Shown here one piece after another: positions 6,148-17,930 of a DNA stretch of 23,495 nt (position 1 is its first letter; each line of letters starts with the position of its first letter). Under the pieces are notes generated by a model. The model did no database searches. It had not been told where the DNA came from and saw only the letters and a program-made list of their open reading frames with translations. The stretch is from a virus, in IMG/VR virus record IMGVR_UViG_3300021963_000659, positions 1 through 23,495 of that record, one strand, 5' to 3'. The position numbers and the translations under genes are program-made.

Positions 6148-6936
6148 TTAGGTTTTTTTAATATTAGGTATATAGGATGGAAATTCTGATGAAATATAAT
6201 TAAATAATGTTTCTGCGTATTTTTTGTTATGAATAGGTCCATGATGCCCACCATCAACTGCCTTATCTATAACCGTAGCAAAATCACCATCAAATCTATT
6301 AAATTCTTTATAATCGGTTGGTATATTCATAGAACCGTTCCACAACCAATTAGCTCCTTTTGATTCTAAAAAATATTTTATTAATAAATGGTTTTTATAC
6401 CAATTTATAAAATCTGAATTTTCATTTTGTAAAGCAACCATATTATTTTGAATATTCTCCCCATTGGTTGTTTCTAATAAATATCCCCAAGATGATTGTG
6501 GCATAAACGGTTCTATCCCACCCTCATCTGTATATATTTCTCTACGGCATATATCTGGATATACTATCAAAACCAAATCAGGTTTAACATAATCATAATA
6601 AGTTAATAAACATCTTGCAATAAAATCATTACTTCTACCACCTGTTCCAAAATTTAAATTAACACCGTTTGGTATATACTTACAAAATATTTGAGGCCAA
6701 GTATCTACATAATTAACACCAACTCCTTCTGTGTGAGAACATCCCAATGATAAAACTTTAAACCCCTTTCGAGTAATACTATCACCTCTAAATCCTAATT
6801 CGTTATAACTGTATGAGCATAATTCGGTGTTATCAGAGCCAGATGTTTTATAAGTTTTATTAACCCTATCTGATAGATTAAATTTATACGTTGATATTTC
6901 AAACGAGTCTACATTCCAATATTTTAATACCTCCAT
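6148..6936 (-). CDS. SGNH/GDSL-type hydrolase, first copy
   Basis: The 262-aa chain shows SGNH blocks: VLSLGCSHTEGVGV at 61-74 with nucleophile Ser67, GTGGRSND at 97-104 (the block with catalytic Asn), and a C-terminal DGGHH at 228-232 giving the Asp-x-x-His pair. SGNH enzymes remove or transfer acyl groups on sugars, lipids or peptidoglycan. Two SGNH genes in tandem next to glycosyltransferases suggest trimming or acylating a glycan on the virion or host surface (inference). There is no signal peptide, so it should act in the cytoplasm or as part of the virion. It ends in NIKKT and lacks the Ser-Leu-Ile tail of its neighbours. Confidence 0.8.
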   Translation of the reverse strand: MEVLKYWNVDSFEISTYKFNLSDRVNKTYKTSGSDNTELCSYSYNELGFRGDSITRKGFKVLSLGCSHTEGVGVNYVDTWPQIFCKYIPNGVNLNFGTGGRSNDFIARCLLTYYDYVKPDLVLIVYPDICRREIYTDEGGIEPFMPQSSWGYLLETTNGENIQNNMVALQNENSDFINWYKNHLLIKYFLESKGANWLWNGSMNIPTDYKEFNRFDGDFATVIDKAVDGGHHGPIHNKKYAETLFNYISSEFPSYIPNIKKT

Positions 6937-7632
6937 TTAAATAATAGATTTGTTACCACTAACTATGTTATATAAAAAATGAGCAAAGTTAAAATGACCA
7001 TTGAAAGAAAAATGTGTATCATTTACTGCACCATTTGTTGCATCATATATTGTTTGAAAAGATGCATAAATCCCTAAATCTTCTTCCAAAGACCATAGAT
7101 AAACAAACCTAACATCTCTTTCTTTTAATAATCTGTTTTTAATAAAATTAAATCTTTTAGTATGTCTATCTTTATAAAATTGATGATTTGAAAAATAATA
7201 TTGAAAATTTATTAAAGCTTCTATTTTTTCATCATCTGTTTCATTTGTTTGGTTTTTAGCATGATTAATTTGTGGTTCTTTTTCATCCATAGATTTTTTA
7301 TTTTTTTCATATCCACAAAGAATATCATATGTACCATCTTTAAATGGAACTTCTATTCTACCATGTAATGTCATATTAATAACAACGACATCATTTGGTT
7401 TAATATTATTAAAATTATCTATTATGCAATCCAATATGTAATCATTAGATGCACCATTTTTTCCTAAATTAATAACATCGTAATCTAACATTTTAGATAA
7501 ATGATTAGACCAAATATCATCTCCTTCTTTTTTATAAGGTAAGTATTCTAATCTGGTATTAGATTTACAATCTACATTACACCCATGTCCAAAAGTCATT
7601 GAATCGCCAAAAGTCCATACAGTATTTTTCAT
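6937..7632 (-). CDS. SGNH/GDSL-type hydrolase, second copy
   Basis: A 231-aa protein starting MKNTVWTFGDSMTFGHGC. GDSMT at 9-13 carries nucleophile Ser11, NLGKNGASND at 55-64 is the Gly-x-Asn-Asp block, and NDTHFSFNGH near 204-213 supplies the Asp/His pair. It is only distantly similar to the first copy and carries a lysine-rich insert in the middle (YEKNKKSMDEKEP). Start and stop overlap its neighbours tightly: 4 nt with the glycosyltransferase-like gene and 0 nt gap to the first SGNH gene. The extreme C-terminus is GNKSII, a variant of the basic-Ser-Leu-Ile tail shared by several proteins of this block. Confidence 0.82.
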   Translation of the reverse strand: MKNTVWTFGDSMTFGHGCNVDCKSNTRLEYLPYKKEGDDIWSNHLSKMLDYDVINLGKNGASNDYILDCIIDNFNNIKPNDVVVINMTLHGRIEVPFKDGTYDILCGYEKNKKSMDEKEPQINHAKNQTNETDDEKIEALINFQYYFSNHQFYKDRHTKRFNFIKNRLLKERDVRFVYLWSLEEDLGIYASFQTIYDATNGAVNDTHFSFNGHFNFAHFLYNIVSGNKSII

Positions 7633-8321
7633 ATCAATTGCTTATTTATTACAAAATTACCAACCATATTTTTTTCCGATAAATGACATACACCATTTTT
7701 ATTCAAATTTTCAAATGACGGGTTTTCATCAAATAAGTAGTTTACATTATCAAAATATAAATTTGGATACTGTTGATTTAATGTAATAGGTGGTATTGTG
7801 TTATATCTACTTAAAAAGAAATCATAGTTAGTATCTATAACATTTAATACTTCATTATACGATTGATTAATTAATGCATAATTTTCCGTACCTATAATCG
7901 ATGTATTATTCAAACATTCAAAGTTGAGTTCTTTGTTTGAATATTTTTTAAAAATATAAACAAAAGTGTTTACATCATTAACGGAGTGTTTGTAGCATAT
8001 ATTTAATGCTTTTGGATTTATTATATTTAATAACTTATTAAAATCTTTTACAATTAAATCGTTATCTAAATGTACGAATGGTTTATCAATTATTGATAAT
8101 ACTTTTAATTTTGGATAAGACCATAAAGTATCTATTTTGTATTTAGAATCAATATCAAACTTAATCCATCTATACTCTAAGTTGGTATATATAAAATAGT
8201 CTATATCAGAGTAAATTATTGGTATTATACCATTATTATTTAAATTAGTAATTGAATATTTTAAATAAATTTCAGTAACCTCTTTTAATCTTATTGGTAG
8301 ATATGTAAACACTACTTCCAT
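7629..8321 (-). CDS. Glycosyltransferase-like protein (GT-A type, DUF6734-like)
   Basis: A 230-aa protein. The segment LWSYPKLKVLSIIDKPFVHL followed by DNDLIV places a D-x-D motif at D86-D88, typical of the metal and nucleotide-sugar site in GT-A enzymes. The W-S-x-x-K-x-x-x-L / P-F-x-H-x-D-N-D pattern is like DUF6734 proteins of Bacteroidetes. A late His in GVCHLSEKNM (about 210-219) may be another metal ligand. It should transfer sugar from a nucleotide-sugar in the cytoplasm. The start overlaps the preceding gene by 1 nt and the stop overlaps the SGNH gene by 4 nt. The C-terminus, INKQLI, is a diverged form of the shared tail. Confidence 0.65.
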   Translation of the reverse strand: MEVVFTYLPIRLKEVTEIYLKYSITNLNNNGIIPIIYSDIDYFIYTNLEYRWIKFDIDSKYKIDTLWSYPKLKVLSIIDKPFVHLDNDLIVKDFNKLLNIINPKALNICYKHSVNDVNTFVYIFKKYSNKELNFECLNNTSIIGTENYALINQSYNEVLNVIDTNYDFFLSRYNTIPPITLNQQYPNLYFDNVNYLFDENPSFENLNKNGVCHLSEKNMVGNFVINKQLI

Positions 8322-9571
8322 TATAACAAAGATTTTTTTATTAAAAAATCAGTTTTCAATCCTCCATCAATTATTAAATCCAACAAAGAATTTTCATTTT
8401 CTATTTTATACATTAATTTATTATGTACCAAATCTGACCATTCTTTGCATAATTTAAAATTTTCATCAAAGTTTTTTAAGAATCCATCTACAAATTCAGC
8501 AAATAACTTACCATTTGTTTTACACATACTCGATTCATTGTAAAAAGGATGTGGTGGAACATCTAACATTATTTCAATCATTTTTAATGGATATTCGTGT
8601 GTTGATATAAATGGAATTCCTGCCAACAATAATCCAAATGTTTTTTCTGAAAGATATTGTGATGTAAATTTTTGATTACCCCAAGACCAACTTTCACATA
8701 ATATTTGCATTTTAGCTTTTGGTAAAACTCTGAAAAATACATCCATATAACCGTGATGATTTGATATATAACTTATATCTTCAAAATCAATTTTACCGTA
8801 AATTGAATTTGTATTTATATGAGATATAGTAGATGCTCTTTGTATAAAATCAGGATTCTGTAAAGCATCTGTATGTTGTAAATATAATCTATTATTATTT
8901 AATTTACTTAATTCATTTATGATTTTAACACGATTAATTTTATGATTTTTAATACTATACATTAAATCATATTCAAAATTTAATTTATCGTACACTTGTT
9001 TAAATTCATAATACCATCTAATATTCCAATTATGATTCCATTGAAATAATGTGTTTGTCAACGTGTAATAAAAATTTGGATAAACAGATTCAACTGATTT
9101 ATCTAAAAAAATATTATCCGTAATTATGTGATGATTTTTTAATTTACCGATTAAAGATTCTATTTCAAGCCAGTTTTTATCAAAATAATCAATATCACTT
9201 GTTTGAAGTATTTTTTCTGTTCTTAAATAACTTATTATCCATTTTTGGTTTTTAGGACAATCTTTTAATAAATTAATAAATATTTTTAAAATTTGTTGGC
9301 TTTCTCTTTCCATATAATCCCTATCGGGAAATATATATCCAATTTTTGAATCTTGGTTTCCGTAAAAAAATGAGGTGAAATAATCTAAAATATGATAGCC
9401 ATCTTCTTCAAAACTTATTTCTTTTTTAAATATAAATTCTATATTAGTATCTTTATATTTACATAAAATACTTCCTTCATTATTATCTATATGATACTCC
9501 CTATCAGTAGTATTGTGAGCTAACGTATAAAATATTTGCTTTTGATACGGATGATGTATATATAACTTCAT
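8321..9571 (-). CDS. Glycosyltransferase-like protein (GT-B/exostosin-like C-terminal half)
   Basis: A 416-aa protein. Residues about 285-330 carry MQILCESWSWGN, then YLSEKTFGLLLAGIPFIS. This E-x-x ... S-E-K-T-F-x-x-x-x-A-G-x-P-F-I signature is seen in GT-B-like transferases encoded by marine phages and in capsule gene clusters, where it binds the nucleotide-sugar. The N-terminal half is diverged and rich in Asn, Ile, Lys and aromatics. It is coupled to the downstream GT-A-like gene (TAATG). The chain ends IKKSLL, a member of the shared C-terminal tail set. The precise sugar and acceptor are unknown. Confidence 0.65.
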   Translation of the reverse strand: MKLYIHHPYQKQIFYTLAHNTTDREYHIDNNEGSILCKYKDTNIEFIFKKEISFEEDGYHILDYFTSFFYGNQDSKIGYIFPDRDYMERESQQILKIFINLLKDCPKNQKWIISYLRTEKILQTSDIDYFDKNWLEIESLIGKLKNHHIITDNIFLDKSVESVYPNFYYTLTNTLFQWNHNWNIRWYYEFKQVYDKLNFEYDLMYSIKNHKINRVKIINELSKLNNNRLYLQHTDALQNPDFIQRASTISHINTNSIYGKIDFEDISYISNHHGYMDVFFRVLPKAKMQILCESWSWGNQKFTSQYLSEKTFGLLLAGIPFISTHEYPLKMIEIMLDVPPHPFYNESSMCKTNGKLFAEFVDGFLKNFDENFKLCKEWSDLVHNKLMYKIENENSLLDLIIDGGLKTDFLIKKSLL

Positions 9572-9593
9572 AAATTATGTAAAATTATATTTT

Positions 9594-10331
9594 TTAAATT
9601 AATGATTTATTTCTTTTATACATACCATCTATGTATGTATCTACAAAAGAAACAAGTTCATCCGTTTTAGTCACCGCACAGTAATCTATTATTGTTTTAT
9701 TTTGATGTATTAATTTAAAATCAATACCCAATTGAATAGATATATAATCCTCAAATTCGTTTAATCTATCAAAATGAAATTGTTTAACTTTTACTCTATC
9801 ATTTAAAATCCATCTGTATTGAGATAGAAAAGACCAAATGTGAGTTCGATACTGTTTTTTGAATCTATCAGTAATATTTAAATACTCATGGATTTCCATT
9901 TTTTTTAGTAATATAACTAACAAATCTTCGTTAAGAGATTTTAAATTATAACAAGATGGTAGTTTTGAGTAGTTTTCTTTTATAAATTCCATTACAAAAC
10001 TGTTATCAAAATTTTTAATTTTATTTGATAACACTTCGTTATTTAATTCATATTCCATAGATGATATGAAATATTTCCAAGCAGAAATAAATCTATCAGT
10101 TGAATTTCTTACAATTGAAACATATTCAAGATTATCACCAAATTTATCTAATAATTGGTCGATAGTAGAATGTATATGCCTTTCAGGTACTTTAATATCC
10201 ATTCGTATGGAATTTTCCCATAAAGCATCTGTGTATTTTAAATCTAATTTATACTTTACACATGTATCTTCTACCGACCAAGATGCATTCTTTGGTATCG
10301 GTATAAATGCAATTTTGTCATTTATAACCAT
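9594..10331 (-). CDS. Sulfotransferase family protein
   Basis: The 245-aa protein has both PAPS-binding elements of carbohydrate sulfotransferases. PIPKNASWS at 11-19 corresponds to the 5'-phosphosulfate loop (IPKNAGTS type), and VRNSTDRFISAWKYF at 74-88 corresponds to the 3'-phosphate site (VRNPxDRxxSAY type). It should move sulfate from PAPS to a sugar hydroxyl. It lies directly upstream of the two glycosyltransferase-like genes, which supports a sulfated glycan product. It ends KRNKSLI, one of the clearest examples of the shared C-terminal tail. Confidence 0.82.
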   Translation of the reverse strand: MVINDKIAFIPIPKNASWSVEDTCVKYKLDLKYTDALWENSIRMDIKVPERHIHSTIDQLLDKFGDNLEYVSIVRNSTDRFISAWKYFISSMEYELNNEVLSNKIKNFDNSFVMEFIKENYSKLPSCYNLKSLNEDLLVILLKKMEIHEYLNITDRFKKQYRTHIWSFLSQYRWILNDRVKVKQFHFDRLNEFEDYISIQLGIDFKLIHQNKTIIDYCAVTKTDELVSFVDTYIDGMYKRNKSLI

Positions 10332-10341
10332 TTAGTTTGTA

Positions 10342-10455
10342 TTATTGAGTTACATCAGCATATATCAGAGCCGCAACTTCTTGCATTATTACTGCAATAT
10401 TTGCATTTACTGTTGTATCTGTTAATACAATTTCTTCGTGAATTATCTTATCCAT
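10342..10455 (-). CDS. Small 37-aa protein between fibre and sulfotransferase genes
   Basis: A 37-aa reading frame fills the gap between the fibre-like gene and the sulfotransferase gene (2 nt after one, 10 nt before the other). The peptide starts MDKIIHEEIVLTD, has NANIAVIMQEVAALIYAD and ends VTQ. It is likely a short amphipathic helix. The tight fit and codon use like its neighbours argue that it is real. No family was recognised. It might be a small structural or chaperone-type partner of the fibre protein (speculative). Confidence 0.55.
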   Translation of the reverse strand: MDKIIHEEIVLTDTTVNANIAVIMQEVAALIYADVTQ

Positions 10456-10457
10456 TA

Positions 10458-12203
10458 TTATAATTTTTTAAATTCAACATCAATTTTACTATAATCAACT
10501 AAATATTTTCCATCTTCATTTAAAGATAATGCAGATTCATATTCAGTTCCTATCAATTCTTGTGCAACTATACCTTCATACAATCCTTCTTCACCTATAT
10601 AATTGAATTGATATATGTTAATTCCTAATGGCGATTTTCCAATTAAATTTAAATTTTCTTTAAAAGAAATATCTGATTTTTGGTCGCAGAAATAACATCC
10701 TGAACAATACCAATCCCAGCAAGCACCACTCCAACACCAACCATTACATTGTCCGTTGTGTTGTACAAATGCTAAACCTAATTCAGTATCGGCAATTGGT
10801 AAAAATATATCATTTGATTCAACATTTAATTCGTATATTAAACGAGTTAAATAAACAACTTCTAAACCTGTTATTTTCGATTTTACCAATGTATTATTAT
10901 TATAATCAAAAAATACAATTGAGTCATTAATTCTGAATCGGTTAGTAACTTTAAATGTTGTTCTTAAAGTATCGTATTCTTCGATTAACATATCACTATT
11001 TGGCAAATCCTCATATGTGATTCCATTTTCTAATGTAACTTTAATCATCAAAGCTTCTTTGGTTTGACTACCCATATCAACAACAGATGCCGTACCTGTT
11101 GTAAACGTACTTAAATCAGCAGCAAAACTTCCAGAGTTTACGCCTGATATGTATATCGGTGTACCATTTTCATCAGTTTCATTTTCAGGAACCCAAGGTA
11201 ATGATAATGTTTTTACCACATCATCTACTAACATCTCATTTGGATATTTTAGAGAACCATCTGCATATATAATTGGAGTATCATTATCCATAATATATCC
11301 ATTTGTGATTTTTTTATAATGAGGTCCTTTTGTCATCCATAATAATCTAGATTTTTGTGACATTAAACCACTCTCATCATACTCCGTTTCCCATTGGTCA
11401 TTTGGTATTGCTGATGTAGCCATATAAGAACCAAGATGTAAACAACTTAAAGTTGGTCCGTATAATATATCTAAACTTCTAATTGCACCAATTTTATTAT
11501 TTATAAAGTTGGCATCATTTAGATGATACTCTTCCATAAATTCGGAATCTGTTAAAGAAGATTTTAAAGATTCTAAATCTTCCAAAGATGCTACTTTATA
11601 AAATTTTGGATAATTGATATAATCCGTAGTATGTGGTGCTCTTGTTTTAATAACATAGTTTGGAGCATCTCCATCGGTTAAATGTAATTCAGTAAGATTA
11701 TCTACATTTAAAGATGCATCACTATCCGAATGATAATATATTTTAGTTGAGTATTCCTTACCAGAAATTAATCTATGAAAATTAACTTTATCTTTTGTAT
11801 ATTCTTCATCAACAATAGCAGTTGTATCGTATGATGTTCTAATAATTAAAGTATCTTCCGCATCTTCAATAAATGGAACTGTTATGGAGTTTTTGGCAAC
11901 TGTATGTGCTTCGTATGTCCCACCAAGTTCTGCCATTATTTCCTGCATCTTATCTTCCATAGAAACATTTGGTGTTGTCGTATCAAATGGATGTAGTAAG
12001 TCATCACTACCAATAAGATTACCATCTGTATATATGAAATGTAATTTTGATATTGAATTATCAATTAAAAATTGTTTAAATGATACCCAATCTAAATTAG
12101 GTGTCATTTTATTATGAACTCCCACATTTGTGTTAGTTTCAATTATCCTTAAATTACCATCTGAATCTTTTAGAAAATCAGTTCCGATTATAAGTGCTTT
12201 CAT
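10458..12203 (-). CDS. Fibre-like protein: ATP-grasp-like N-terminal region, Cys-rich segment, S74 self-cleaving chaperone
   Basis: The 581-aa protein appears to have several modules. The N-terminus (MKALIIGTDFLKDSDGNL, then RIIETNTNVG) looks like the metal-binding E-x-N strand of ATP-grasp enzymes. Later pieces look like other ATP-grasp strands: DKVNFHRLI near 138-146, VIKTRAPH, and EFMEEYHLND. The order is unusual, as if circularly permuted. Residues 486-509 hold six Cys with many Trp and Tyr. The last 72 residues, from S510-D511 (SDISFKENLNLIGKSPLGIN, later EGIVAQEL and VDYSKID), are a peptidase S74 intramolecular chaperone, which trimerises fibre domains and then cuts itself off at the Ser-Asp junction. 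It is probably a tail fibre or virion protein. Confidence 0.75.
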   Translation of the reverse strand: MKALIIGTDFLKDSDGNLRIIETNTNVGVHNKMTPNLDWVSFKQFLIDNSISKLHFIYTDGNLIGSDDLLHPFDTTTPNVSMEDKMQEIMAELGGTYEAHTVAKNSITVPFIEDAEDTLIIRTSYDTTAIVDEEYTKDKVNFHRLISGKEYSTKIYYHSDSDASLNVDNLTELHLTDGDAPNYVIKTRAPHTTDYINYPKFYKVASLEDLESLKSSLTDSEFMEEYHLNDANFINNKIGAIRSLDILYGPTLSCLHLGSYMATSAIPNDQWETEYDESGLMSQKSRLLWMTKGPHYKKITNGYIMDNDTPIIYADGSLKYPNEMLVDDVVKTLSLPWVPENETDENGTPIYISGVNSGSFAADLSTFTTGTASVVDMGSQTKEALMIKVTLENGITYEDLPNSDMLIEEYDTLRTTFKVTNRFRINDSIVFFDYNNNTLVKSKITGLEVVYLTRLIYELNVESNDIFLPIADTELGLAFVQHNGQCNGWCWSGACWDWYCSGCYFCDQKSDISFKENLNLIGKSPLGINIYQFNYIGEEGLYEGIVAQELIGTEYESALSLNEDGKYLVDYSKIDVEFKKL

Positions 12204-12239
12204 TCTATATGTTTTATTTTATTATAAATATATGAGTTT

Positions 12240-12881
12240 TTAAATTAAACTACGTTTTTGTTTTACATATTCAAAACCAACATTACCTGCAATTACTATT
12301 CTATCTTTTGTTGATTTTGGAGCCAAACTTGGTGAGTGTGGTACTTCACCACCCATAATAACTAAATCACCAACTTTTGGTAAGTAATAATATCTATCAT
12401 TCTTTCCTCCGATTATCAATGTCCCATCATTTTCAGACAAGTTATCTGGCATTTGTGTATAGTAAACAAAGGTATATGTTGGGTAGAATGATTCATTTTC
12501 ATTTTGAATATCTACATGGTTATGTAATACAACATCTCCATTTCTTTTGAAATATTCGGATTGTCTGGGATTCTTAGTCCTAAGTAGGTTTACCCAAACA
12601 TCCAAATTTATTTTGTTAAAAATTTTATTATTTTGATTCATTAAATCCATACACTTTAATACGGATAATTTTACAATTTCATCTACACCATTATTGATAC
12701 TTATTTCATTTTCAAAATCAAAAATACTCAGCTTTTTAACATACCCGTAATTATCTTTTGGTGAATAACCTGTTGTTTTTAAAAATGATTTGGTAGCAGT
12801 TAATATTGGTTCATTAAAATCATACGAACCTAAATTGGTTTGATATATATAAACCCCGTCTTCAAATTCAATCTTTTCCAT
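12240..12881 (-). CDS. 2OG-Fe(II) oxygenase (prolyl-4-hydroxylase-like)
   Basis: In this 213-aa protein the facial triad can be read: H122-x-D124 in VVLHNHVDIQNE, H182 in GEVPHSPSL, and R194 in STKDRIVIAGN, which binds the 2-oxoglutarate carboxylate. It should hydroxylate a protein side chain or small molecule using O2 and 2-oxoglutarate. Such oxygenases are common near tail-fibre genes in T4-like marine phages. It lies directly upstream of the fibre-like gene and could hydroxylate that protein or a sugar on it. The chain ends KQKRSLI, one of the shared C-terminal tails. Confidence 0.85.
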   Translation of the reverse strand: MEKIEFEDGVYIYQTNLGSYDFNEPILTATKSFLKTTGYSPKDNYGYVKKLSIFDFENEISINNGVDEIVKLSVLKCMDLMNQNNKIFNKINLDVWVNLLRTKNPRQSEYFKRNGDVVLHNHVDIQNENESFYPTYTFVYYTQMPDNLSENDGTLIIGGKNDRYYYLPKVGDLVIMGGEVPHSPSLAPKSTKDRIVIAGNVGFEYVKQKRSLI

Positions 12882-12884
12882 AAC

Positions 12885-13172
12885 CTATATTAATGATTTT
12901 CTCTTTTCCTTTAATATTGACTTATATTTTTCTTCTAAGGTATTCCACTTCTTTTCAGGACAAGACCCAAATTGGTCTGTAAATATCTTCTTTTGTATAG
13001 GGCATCCACAACTACCACAAATAGCAGACCACTCTTTATTGTGTATGACCTCTTTTCTGAAATCACATTCCATACAAACATCCAATCTTTCCTTTGCAAG
13101 TTCAGTTTGTATTTCGTTAGGATTTGCAGCAGTAATCCACGCATTTATAATTTCTAATGGATTGAATTTCAT
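12885..13172 (-). CDS. Zinc-ribbon protein with appended C-terminal tail
   Basis: A 95-aa protein. Metal-type cysteines are C33-x-x-C36, C52-x-x-C55 with C57, and C71 in a C-P-x-K-K-W motif. It is a clear paralog of the next gene upstream: the RLxxCxxC, CGxCGCPxxKKIF and CPxxKW pattern matches along the full zinc ribbon. Unlike that neighbour it continues about 19 residues beyond K-K-W as a charged helix ending KEKRKSLI. It could bind nucleic acid, protein or a metal-dependent partner. The added tail, ending like the surrounding enzymes, suggests a role as a shared subunit or adaptor (inference). It lies 1 nt after its paralog. Confidence 0.78.
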   Translation of the reverse strand: MKFNPLEIINAWITAANPNEIQTELAKERLDVCMECDFRKEVIHNKEWSAICGSCGCPIQKKIFTDQFGSCPEKKWNTLEEKYKSILKEKRKSLI

Positions 13173-13173
13173 A

Positions 13174-13392
13174 TTACCACTTATTTAATGGACAGGGTTG
13201 TTCTACTTCTGAAAATATCTTTTTACCTAATGGGCAACCACATTGTCCACATATATATCCAAACACAACTGATTCTTGTCTTTTCTCACAACTGTTGCAT
13301 ATTTCTAATCTACGTTGTGCTTCCTTTGATTGTTCTTCGGTAGGACTAAATGATGTCCACCAACTTTTAATGATGTCTTTTATACCACTCAT
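13174..13392 (-). CDS. Zinc-ribbon protein, tail-less paralog
   Basis: A 72-aa protein with C32-x-x-C35, C48-x-x-C51, C53 and C67. RRLEICNSC, ICGQCGCPLGKKIF and CPLNKW match the next gene downstream. The N-terminus (IIKSWWTSFSPTEE) is an amphipathic helix with two Trp. It stops right after the final CPxxKW motif, so it lacks the basic-Ser-Leu-Ile extension of its paralog. The start overlaps the stop of the 100-aa gene by 4 nt. Function unknown; the fold is probably a small zinc-stabilised module. Confidence 0.78.
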   Translation of the reverse strand: MSGIKDIIKSWWTSFSPTEEQSKEAQRRLEICNSCEKRQESVVFGYICGQCGCPLGKKIFSEVEQPCPLNKW

Positions 13393-17379: not shown

Positions 17380-17394
17380 TGTCAGATTTGGTTT
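17380..17394. repeat. 15-bp direct repeat flanking the sulfotransferase-like gene, left copy
   Basis: TGTCAGATTTGGTTT, identical to 17939-17953. The two copies bracket the 178-aa gene almost exactly. Here it lies just past the gene's stop codon. Confidence 0.6.
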
Positions 17395-17930
17395 TAAATC
17401 AAAATATCTTTTCTCATCTTGCCACCTATACTCAGTAGGTATTCGTATTGTGTATCCTTTATACCTAAATAGTCTTTCAGAATTTGCAACTCTTCACCTG
17501 TCTCATATATCCCTTCGTAGGTCAGTTTTAATCCAGCATATTCAATCTTATCTATAATCTCATTATGTTTAGATATAAACGATTCATTCTCTCTTATATG
17601 GGATTCGTTATCTCTTATCCACTCATCGGTTATCATATAGGGTGAATGAAATCGGTTGTTCTTATCAGCAAAGGTTATACTCTCTGCTGCTTTTCTTATA
17701 TCATTCCTTTTCAAGGTTATAACCGTATCCCAATCATTAGGGTCAAAATCATTGTACGGTTGAATATCTTCATATAGTATCGTATGAACCAAATGTTTAA
17801 CCACTATATTATCCCCAGCAACATACCCACTATTTGGCTCTTCTATGCAAGTGTATTTCAATTCTTTTGAAATCCATTCATTTAAATTTCTACCACCTGT
17901 CCTTTGTGTTGCTATGATTAGTATTCTCAT
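17394..17930 (-). CDS. Sulfotransferase-like P-loop protein (second)
   Basis: A 178-aa protein. MRILIIATQRTGGRNLNEWI resembles the N-terminal PAPS-binding loop of sulfotransferases (A-T-x-R-S/T-G-x-x-x-L). VVKHLV and then DTVITLKRNDIRKAAESITF near 68-87 resembles the 3'-phosphate site (L-x-R-x-x-x-x-x-x-x-S). Length is short for the family (usually 220-300), so it may be a minimal phage form or a different P-loop enzyme. It is bracketed by a 15-bp direct repeat and separates the regulatory zone from the paralog array, as if inserted. It ends RKDILI, which is not the Ser-Leu-Ile tail. Confidence 0.6.
   Translation of the reverse strand: MRILIIATQRTGGRNLNEWISKELKYTCIEEPNSGYVAGDNIVVKHLVHTILYEDIQPYNDFDPNDWDTVITLKRNDIRKAAESITFADKNNRFHSPYMITDEWIRDNESHIRENESFISKHNEIIDKIEYAGLKLTYEGIYETGEELQILKDYLGIKDTQYEYLLSIGGKMRKDILI

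Follow-up and report, generated by a model that had tools for sequence, protein, structure and literature searches.

A shared C-terminal peptide on the enzymes of one gene cassette in uncultured T4-like phages, a probable docking tag

Almost all enzymes encoded by a single gene cassette in a group of uncultured large T4-like phages share a short C-terminal peptide with the consensus K-x-x-[KN]-[STKN]-[LI]-[IL]-COOH, which is probably a docking tag, borne on a variable linker, of the enzymes of one phage pathway. The ending was noticed in IMG/VR virus record IMGVR_UViG_3300021963_000659, of which the whole stretch of 23,495 nucleotides (positions 1 to 23,495) is termed the window, and where an earlier annotation made from the letters alone (the sequence-only reading) had pointed to six proteins with a common tail between positions 6,937 and 13,172. 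The same cassette encodes an untagged multidomain protein, c2, on which the distribution of the tag is centred.

All six tails were located on the minus strand at the genes named by the sequence-only reading, with different codons behind them and with TAA, TGA and TAG stops each used. The pattern [KRN][KR][SQ][LI][LI]$, broadened post hoc so that INKQLI fits, matches 6 of the 42 genes in the window (P = 2e-12, using a chance rate of at most 9e-4 per gene; composition predicts 7e-5, and the set of all 5-mers in these proteins gives 9e-4). Homologues of the six tagged proteins fall into six BLAST clusters (c1, c22, c11, c4, c3 and c6), and the claim that six unrelated proteins share a tail was confirmed. 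Three genes of the block lack the tag and end in IKKT (6148-6936), FKKL (10458-12203) and LNKW (13174-13392). Outside the block, a sulfotransferase-like gene at 17394-17930 has the end RKDILI, which is tag-like but has no K/N at -4 (positions are counted from the C-terminus, with -1 the last residue).

The genome-wide test was run on relatives, since the window itself is just a 23.5 kb fragment from a virus record. A first scan with the putative GT-B-like protein (8321-9571) gave 15 loci, in which nearly all cassette genes are tagged at the end and adjoining core genes are not, and all 15 IMG/VR relatives of this protein (73-82% identity) retain K-[KN]-[ST]-[LI]-[IL]. Single-protein scans with the 2-oxoglutarate (2OG)-oxygenase-like protein (12240-12881) and with the sulfotransferase-like protein (9594-10331) gave no matches, and alignment queries were used instead; further scans with alignments of c2 and of the 2OG-like protein brought the total to 163 loci, IMG/VR records being mostly fragments. 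Open reading frames (ORFs) were assigned mechanically as the longest non-overlapping frames that start with ATG, and 725 of the 1591 non-redundant ORFs (46%) end in [LI][LI], compared with 22-50 (1.4-3%) at internal control positions, while [KR]S[LI][IL] was found at 151 ORF ends and at 0 internal positions. The count of the ending on the contigs of relatives is far above expectation, and homologues in related phages keep the tag, with no random loss.

BLAST single-linkage clustering, with a family taken as tagged when at least three members are present and at least half of them tagged, gave 19 mostly tagged families (732 proteins) that are mutually unmatched by BLAST, although such clusters may separate distant homologues, so that some of the 19 have a common fold. 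This applies to several 2OG groups, to two that are sulfotransferase-like and to two that are SGNH-like, and ~eight distinct superfamilies are left. In 52 families of the same phages (490 proteins) at most a tenth of members are tagged, and 11 families are intermediate. Weighted per family, K stands at -7 (0.40), K or N at -4 (0.56 and 0.19), S, K, T or N at -3, L or I at -2 (0.68 and 0.24) and I or L at -1 (0.76 and 0.16). The Kullback-Leibler (KL) logo gives 2.5, 2.4, 1.1 and 1.4 bits for positions -1 to -4. The sorting of families on [LI][LI] accounts for part of the signal at -1 and -2, but not for K/N at -4, K at -7 or the polar residue found at -3. The third-last residue is S/T in 47% and K/N in 36%, and the last is I/L in 92%; untagged families of the same phages have no comparable end logo.

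Selection on the tag acts at the level of the protein and not of the DNA. Ser at -3 is encoded by both TCN (62%) and AGY (38%) codons, Lys and Asn codons at -4 agree with usage in the gene bodies, and tagged genes across the loci use all three stops, with the next ATG at -4, -1, +1 or beyond. The last codon does show a significant bias (ATA 73% vs 47%), a surplus which ATGA overlaps would give; overlapping genes are tagged in 16 of 16 cases in the cassette vs 11 of 100 outside. Within families the last residues are kept and the preceding linker residues vary. Likewise, in an alignment of two adjacent zinc-ribbon paralogues of the window, which are 42% identical, the protein at 13174-13392 stops at a conserved Trp, and that at 12885-13172 and its relatives add a variable linker and then the tag. 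A copied DNA element, which the sequence-only reading had already argued against from the codons, was ruled out together with translational coupling and composition by these codon, stop, spacing and overlap controls and by core families, which are unbiased.

We then consider where the tag occurs. Three large contigs, of 288, 238 and 93 kb, each have the tag chiefly in a single cassette, with [LIF][LI] ends on 8/11, 10/11 and 12/14 genes inside the cassette and on 14/333, 13/263 and 6/76 outside it; a few tagged genes are scattered elsewhere. The tagged fraction is 0.83-0.93 at one to three genes either side of c2 and ~0.2 or less past ten genes on both sides. For families present both near and far from c2, 389/446 members are tagged near vs 39/106 far (odds ratio 12), in a comparison that pools some core families and in which several of the far tagged genes sit in long cassettes. 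Furthermore, c2 was found in 53 of 64 loci collected via the tagged 2OG family and not via c2, the other 11 being mostly short or truncated. A homology-free scan of IMG/VR with the tag as DNA identified, among the matches listed and analysed, 11 contigs with at least three tagged genes, all of which contain c2 or families of the c2 cassette; most other analysed loci have 0 or 1 tagged gene. Trp halogenase and 2OG genes of the Pelagibacter/cyanobacterial phages HTVC008M, P-SSM2 and S-RIM44 are without the tag, and it is largely missing from enzyme clusters elsewhere in the phages that carry the cassette.

One such cluster, upstream of the tagged cassette in locus L099, has the same radical-S-adenosylmethionine (SAM) and 2OG families as that cassette. 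At L099:2-6817 and in similar upstream clusters (families c16, c24, c28 and c69), radical-SAM, 2OG and glycosyltransferase (GT)-like genes stand beside the tagged cassette and are largely untagged, with c16 frequently ending in KLI/KLL and c28 in YF-x-H-x. Two further observations concern other contigs. In G001 (IMGVR 3300021963_006415), positions 14742-42065 of the cassette-bearing phage are taken up by a long, near-untagged series of genes for sugar-nucleotide, glycosyltransferase and SGNH-like proteins, which probably forms a module of its own for surface or virion glycans. In G006 (IMGVR 3300021962_000021), an adjacent tagged pair (IQKSLI and AKQTLI) lies at 94330-96937, ~20 kb off the main cassette.

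The tagged set spans Trp halogenases, 2OG oxygenases, sulfotransferases, radical-SAM enzymes, GTs, SGNH hydrolases and methyltransferases, with Pfam matches to Trp halogenase (3e-88), 2OG oxygenases (1e-13 and 2e-12), radical SAM (1e-4), and FkbM and other methyltransferases (1e-11 and 4e-5). The original proposal of a docking or co-assembly tag is supported in part, in that a peptide-level tag marks one pathway's enzymes and docking is the best explanation for it. The set goes beyond the glycan modification that had been suggested: relatives add Trp halogenases, several 2OG oxygenases, radical-SAM enzymes and methyltransferases. Such enzymes around a protein with ATP-grasp-like and Hint domains and a tail rich in Trp, Tyr and Cys suggest the tailoring of a peptide or protein tip.

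The c2 cluster is present in about 80 phage loci, with no relative in the GTDB genomes searched and neither a c2 nor an 8321-type relative in the cultured phages searched. Its middle domain has the Hint fold: Foldseek matched it to bacterial intein-like (BIL), intein and Hedgehog structures from E = 4e-7, and members of the family match Pfam Intein_splicing (7e-9) and Hint (9e-9) and, by profile, the KlbA intein (E = 0.003). The terminal His-Asn (HN) of this domain is kept in 58/58 c2 relatives; the Cys1 position, placed by inspection of the alignment, is mostly His or Ile, and the residue after HN varies (S, G, A, P or T). Splicing is not expected of c2, which has no N-terminal Cys/Ser nucleophile and no fixed Cys/Ser/Thr after HN, and from what is known of inteins C-terminal cleavage without splicing would be the expected chemistry. 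The N-terminal ~300 residues resemble, weakly, the glutathione-synthetase-like effector 5oev (Foldseek E = 6e-5, TMq 0.24) and look, again weakly, like those of an ATP-grasp enzyme; an E-x-N motif and Arg, Lys and Glu residues are invariant there, and the full set of positions without variation in the alignment of 58 relatives is E22, N24, R122, D126, K186, E225, R242, H482 and N483.

Behind the Hint domain of c2 is a tail with a median of 29 residues, in which Cys, Trp and Tyr make up 21%, 9% and 10%, compared with 0.6, 0.7 and 5.5% in the rest of the protein. The AlphaFold2 (AF2) model of c2 has a predicted local distance difference test (pLDDT) score of 81 overall and below 50 in this tail. 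Peptidase_S74 is matched in 3 of 58 c2 members (best E = 1e-4); the window c2 has no Pfam match, and its residues 510-574 match PHROG 6121 and were aligned by eye with the S74-like ends of relatives. Taken as a whole, c2 is a candidate self-processing precursor, or a candidate fibre tip, in its own right. The presence of a halogenase tracks a C[WYF]CP motif in the tail (23/25 vs 1/24), and on the c2 tree halogenase and motif were apparently lost jointly about twice, which is suggestive only as a hint that the tail may be the substrate.

From these data c2 is the leading candidate for the actual receptor of the tag, a role which we put forward tentatively on gene position and co-occurrence and hold to be less secure than docking as such. 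The free C-termini of the enzymes would be held by the ATP-grasp-like N-terminal domain of c2, or by a complex built on that domain, and halogenase, 2OG oxygenases, sulfotransferases, radical-SAM enzyme and glycosyl- and methyltransferases would be concentrated on its Cys/Trp/Tyr-rich tail. The Hint domain would then cut at the invariant His-Asn junction and release the modified tail, with the S74 domain, where present, acting as a chaperone. We infer all four steps (tag binding, c2 as the binder, the tail as substrate, and cleavage), and position, co-occurrence and the kinds of enzyme present agree with docking of tailoring enzymes on c2 through the tag and modification of the c2 tail. In its fullest form this would be a line of reversed recognition, where the enzymes carry the recognition peptide, a precursor with an ATP-grasp-like reader collects them, the tail is decorated (halogenated, oxidised and sulfated) and Hint frees it; we consider this form possible but on balance unlikely, and if it is true new enzymes join the line merely by acquiring the tag.

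Several points weigh against this interpretation. The case for c2 as receptor is confined to gene position and co-occurrence, in a set of loci half of which came from searches with c2; the ATP-grasp assignment is weak by sequence (Pfam RimK 0.06, in two c2 members); and some cassette genes are untagged, with the few scattered genes already mentioned tagged elsewhere. The link between halogenase and CWCP is strongly tied to phylogeny, with ~two independent events, and the motif was picked after viewing the tails. Tail Trp count alone shows no difference with halogenase (p = 0.28), and other enzyme families have no tail correlate.

Among the alternatives, the tag could dock the enzymes to another phage or host partner, such as a component of the virion or baseplate or some protein of the host, for modification of host-surface or fibre glycans, and c2 would be a mere cassette member. 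Work on glycans typically involves SGNH hydrolases, GTs and sulfotransferases, and the S74 fibre-type domain on c2 (in the window and a few relatives) could make c2 a fibre tip; however, c2 is the one constant neighbour, on which the peak of tagged genes is centred, and most GT/SGNH genes of similar type at other places in these genomes have no tag. We consider such a partner rather unlikely. Improbable too is a role as cargo signal, by which the enzymes would be loaded into capsid or virion under a logic like that of encapsulin cargo-loading peptides or T4 capsid targeting. Short C-terminal peptides do load diverse enzymes into HK97-fold shells via a hydrophobic pocket (encapsulin cargo-loading peptide (CLP), PMC7355545), but in the loci seen the cassette is not beside capsid genes, and many cofactor-dependent enzymes would need to be carried or injected.

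We give slightly less credence again to a degradation or unfolding signal for host ClpX or a similar protease, by which the enzymes would be removed at a set time. A basic stretch ahead of a hydrophobic C-terminus does recall the MuA degron RRKKAI (PMC8138137), but a degron would not need to stay within a single cassette, as the tag does in the three large contigs, and homologues of the enzymes encoded outside it are largely without the tag. At about the same low level, or a little below it, stands the tag as substrate, whereby the ATP-grasp-like domain of c2 would activate the C-terminal carboxylate and join the enzymes to an amine or add amino acids; RimK-like ATP-grasp ligases act on protein C-termini, an R2K clade is predicted to tag proteins (PMC4431377), and c2 keeps E-x-N, Lys, Glu and Arg in all relatives aligned, but the catalytic assignment is one of weak fold similarity and conservation only. 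The PDZ-type ligand raised by the sequence-only reading was not upheld: the PDZ domain PF00595 is absent from 11 phage contigs (the control being positive in 14/14 reference genomes), a search that covered the phage side, and in ~1/3 of cases the third-last residue is Lys/Asn in place of Ser/Thr. A DNA or RNA artefact, be it a sequence common to gene ends that serves translational coupling, linkers left by recombination, or base composition, can practically be dismissed, for although the genes are AT-rich and tightly packed, both Ser codon families are used, codon use is near that of the gene bodies, stops and spacings vary, overlapping genes outside the cassette are mostly untagged and core families are unbiased.

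Features of the cassette in the window are listed in Table 1. The GT-B label is that of the sequence-only reading, this protein having no Pfam match. The sulfotransferase-like protein has a PHROG match to galactose-3-O-sulfotransferase (E = 4e-6) and in Foldseek has SULT enzymes, the expected family, on top with a weak match (E = 0.06); the final four residues of its AF2 model are below pLDDT 50. The 2OG label is weak, with a 2OG-FeII_Oxy_3 match in one relative (E = 0.08) and a PHROG match to a family named DNA endonuclease V; in the alignment of its relatives the [ST]LI tail is conserved.

Table 1. Cassette genes of the window and domains of c2 (positions are those of the window).
Feature	Position	Strand	Tail and tag codons	Basis and tagged share of family
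SGNH-like protein, cassette edge, untagged	6148-6936	-	..PNIKKT	weak DUF6071 match
SGNH/GDSL-type hydrolase	6937-7632	-	..SGNKSII, 6940-6960	Pfam Lipase_GDSL_2 E=3e-4; c1 82% tagged
GT-A-like protein (DUF6734)	7629-8321	-	..VINKQLI, 7632-7652	Pfam DUF6734 E=1e-5; c22 100% tagged, n=14
Putative GT-B-like protein	8321-9571	-	..LIKKSLL, 8324-8344	c11 100% tagged, n=22
Sulfotransferase-like protein	9594-10331	-	..KRNKSLI, 9597-9617	c4 97% tagged
Central untagged protein c2, 581 aa	10458-12203	-		N-terminal ATP-grasp-like domain, Hint domain, Cys/Trp/Tyr-rich tail, S74-type chaperone domain
c2 S74-type chaperone domain	10461-10676	-		PHROG 6121
c2 Cys/Trp/Tyr-rich tail GQCNGWCWSGACWDWYCSGCYFCDQK	10677-10754	-		composition
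c2 Hint domain, ends HN	10755-11297	-		Foldseek, Pfam, profile
c2 ATP-grasp-like N-terminal domain	11304-12203	-		weak sequence and fold similarity
2OG-oxygenase-like protein	12240-12881	-	..VKQKRSLI, 12243-12263	c3 86% tagged, n=78
Zinc-ribbon protein, linker and tag	12885-13172	-	..EKRKSLI, 12888-12908	c6 83% tagged, n=71
Untagged zinc-ribbon paralogue, in-window control	13174-13392	-	..CPLNKW, final conserved Trp = end	PHROG 13558 E=5e-10

The baseplate, portal and terminase of these phages are T4-like, and the closest cultured terminases, at ~53% identity, are those of Flavobacterium phage immuto and Microcystis phage Mel-JY01, in which we found no such cassette or tags in the genome stretches read. 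From the terminase relatives we would guess at a Bacteroidota host. If the docking interpretation is true, a plug-in tag found on 19 enzyme families without sequence relationship would amount to a natural scaffold system for the construction of multi-enzyme pathways, and would hint at a phage peptide or fibre tip of a class that is heavily modified and so far undescribed. The tag also offers a rule for reading cassettes, in which a tagged gene is probably a member of the pathway, and it becomes possible to test what Trp halogenases, 2OG oxygenases and sulfotransferases do in these aquatic phages, with the zinc-ribbon pair as a natural tagged/untagged control for binding tests.

The principle of a C-terminal targeting peptide is known, and a search of the open papers found no matching phage system, RiPP-like phage cluster (RiPP, ribosomally synthesised and post-translationally modified peptide) or C-terminal enzyme tag; as far as those papers reach, the system is not a known one. 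Peroxisomal targeting signal 1 (PTS1), the SKL-type C-terminal tripeptide of eukaryotes read by PEX5, likewise places polar/basic residues and Leu at the ends of many unrelated enzymes, but no PEX5-like receptor is expected in these phages. The MuA ClpX degron RRKKAI shares the basic stretch and the hydrophobic last residue, whereas the phage tag is limited to one pathway, has [LI][LI] as its last two residues and favours Ser/Thr/Lys/Asn before them. Encapsulin cargo peptides are short C-terminal peptides on unrelated enzymes encoded beside the binding protein, with conservation shown by operon comparison (PMC7355545), and resemble the tag in being common to unrelated enzymes clustered in one gene cassette; here, however, there are 19 families, the sequence is another, and the tag is phage-borne. 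No encapsulin shell gene was evident among the conserved neighbours, in which no shell-specific search was made. With inteins, BIL domains and Hedgehog proteins c2 shares the fold of its middle domain (TM-score up to 0.76 by target length) and the invariant terminal His-Asn, but c2 is without the N-terminal Cys (His or Ile instead) and needs no Cys/Ser/Thr after the Asn, so that splicing is not expected. Comparable too are RiPP systems such as proteusins and the ATP-grasp-based graspetides, where a flavin halogenase, radical-SAM and tailoring enzymes are clustered with a protein bearing a small C-terminal tail rich in modifiable residues; in proteusins, large structured leaders can serve as substrates, including in a flavin brominase pathway (PMC10858898). 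The phage system differs in that its precursor-like c2 has ATP-grasp-like and Hint domains, and in that the recognition element, which in RiPP pathways lies on the precursor, would lie on the enzymes.

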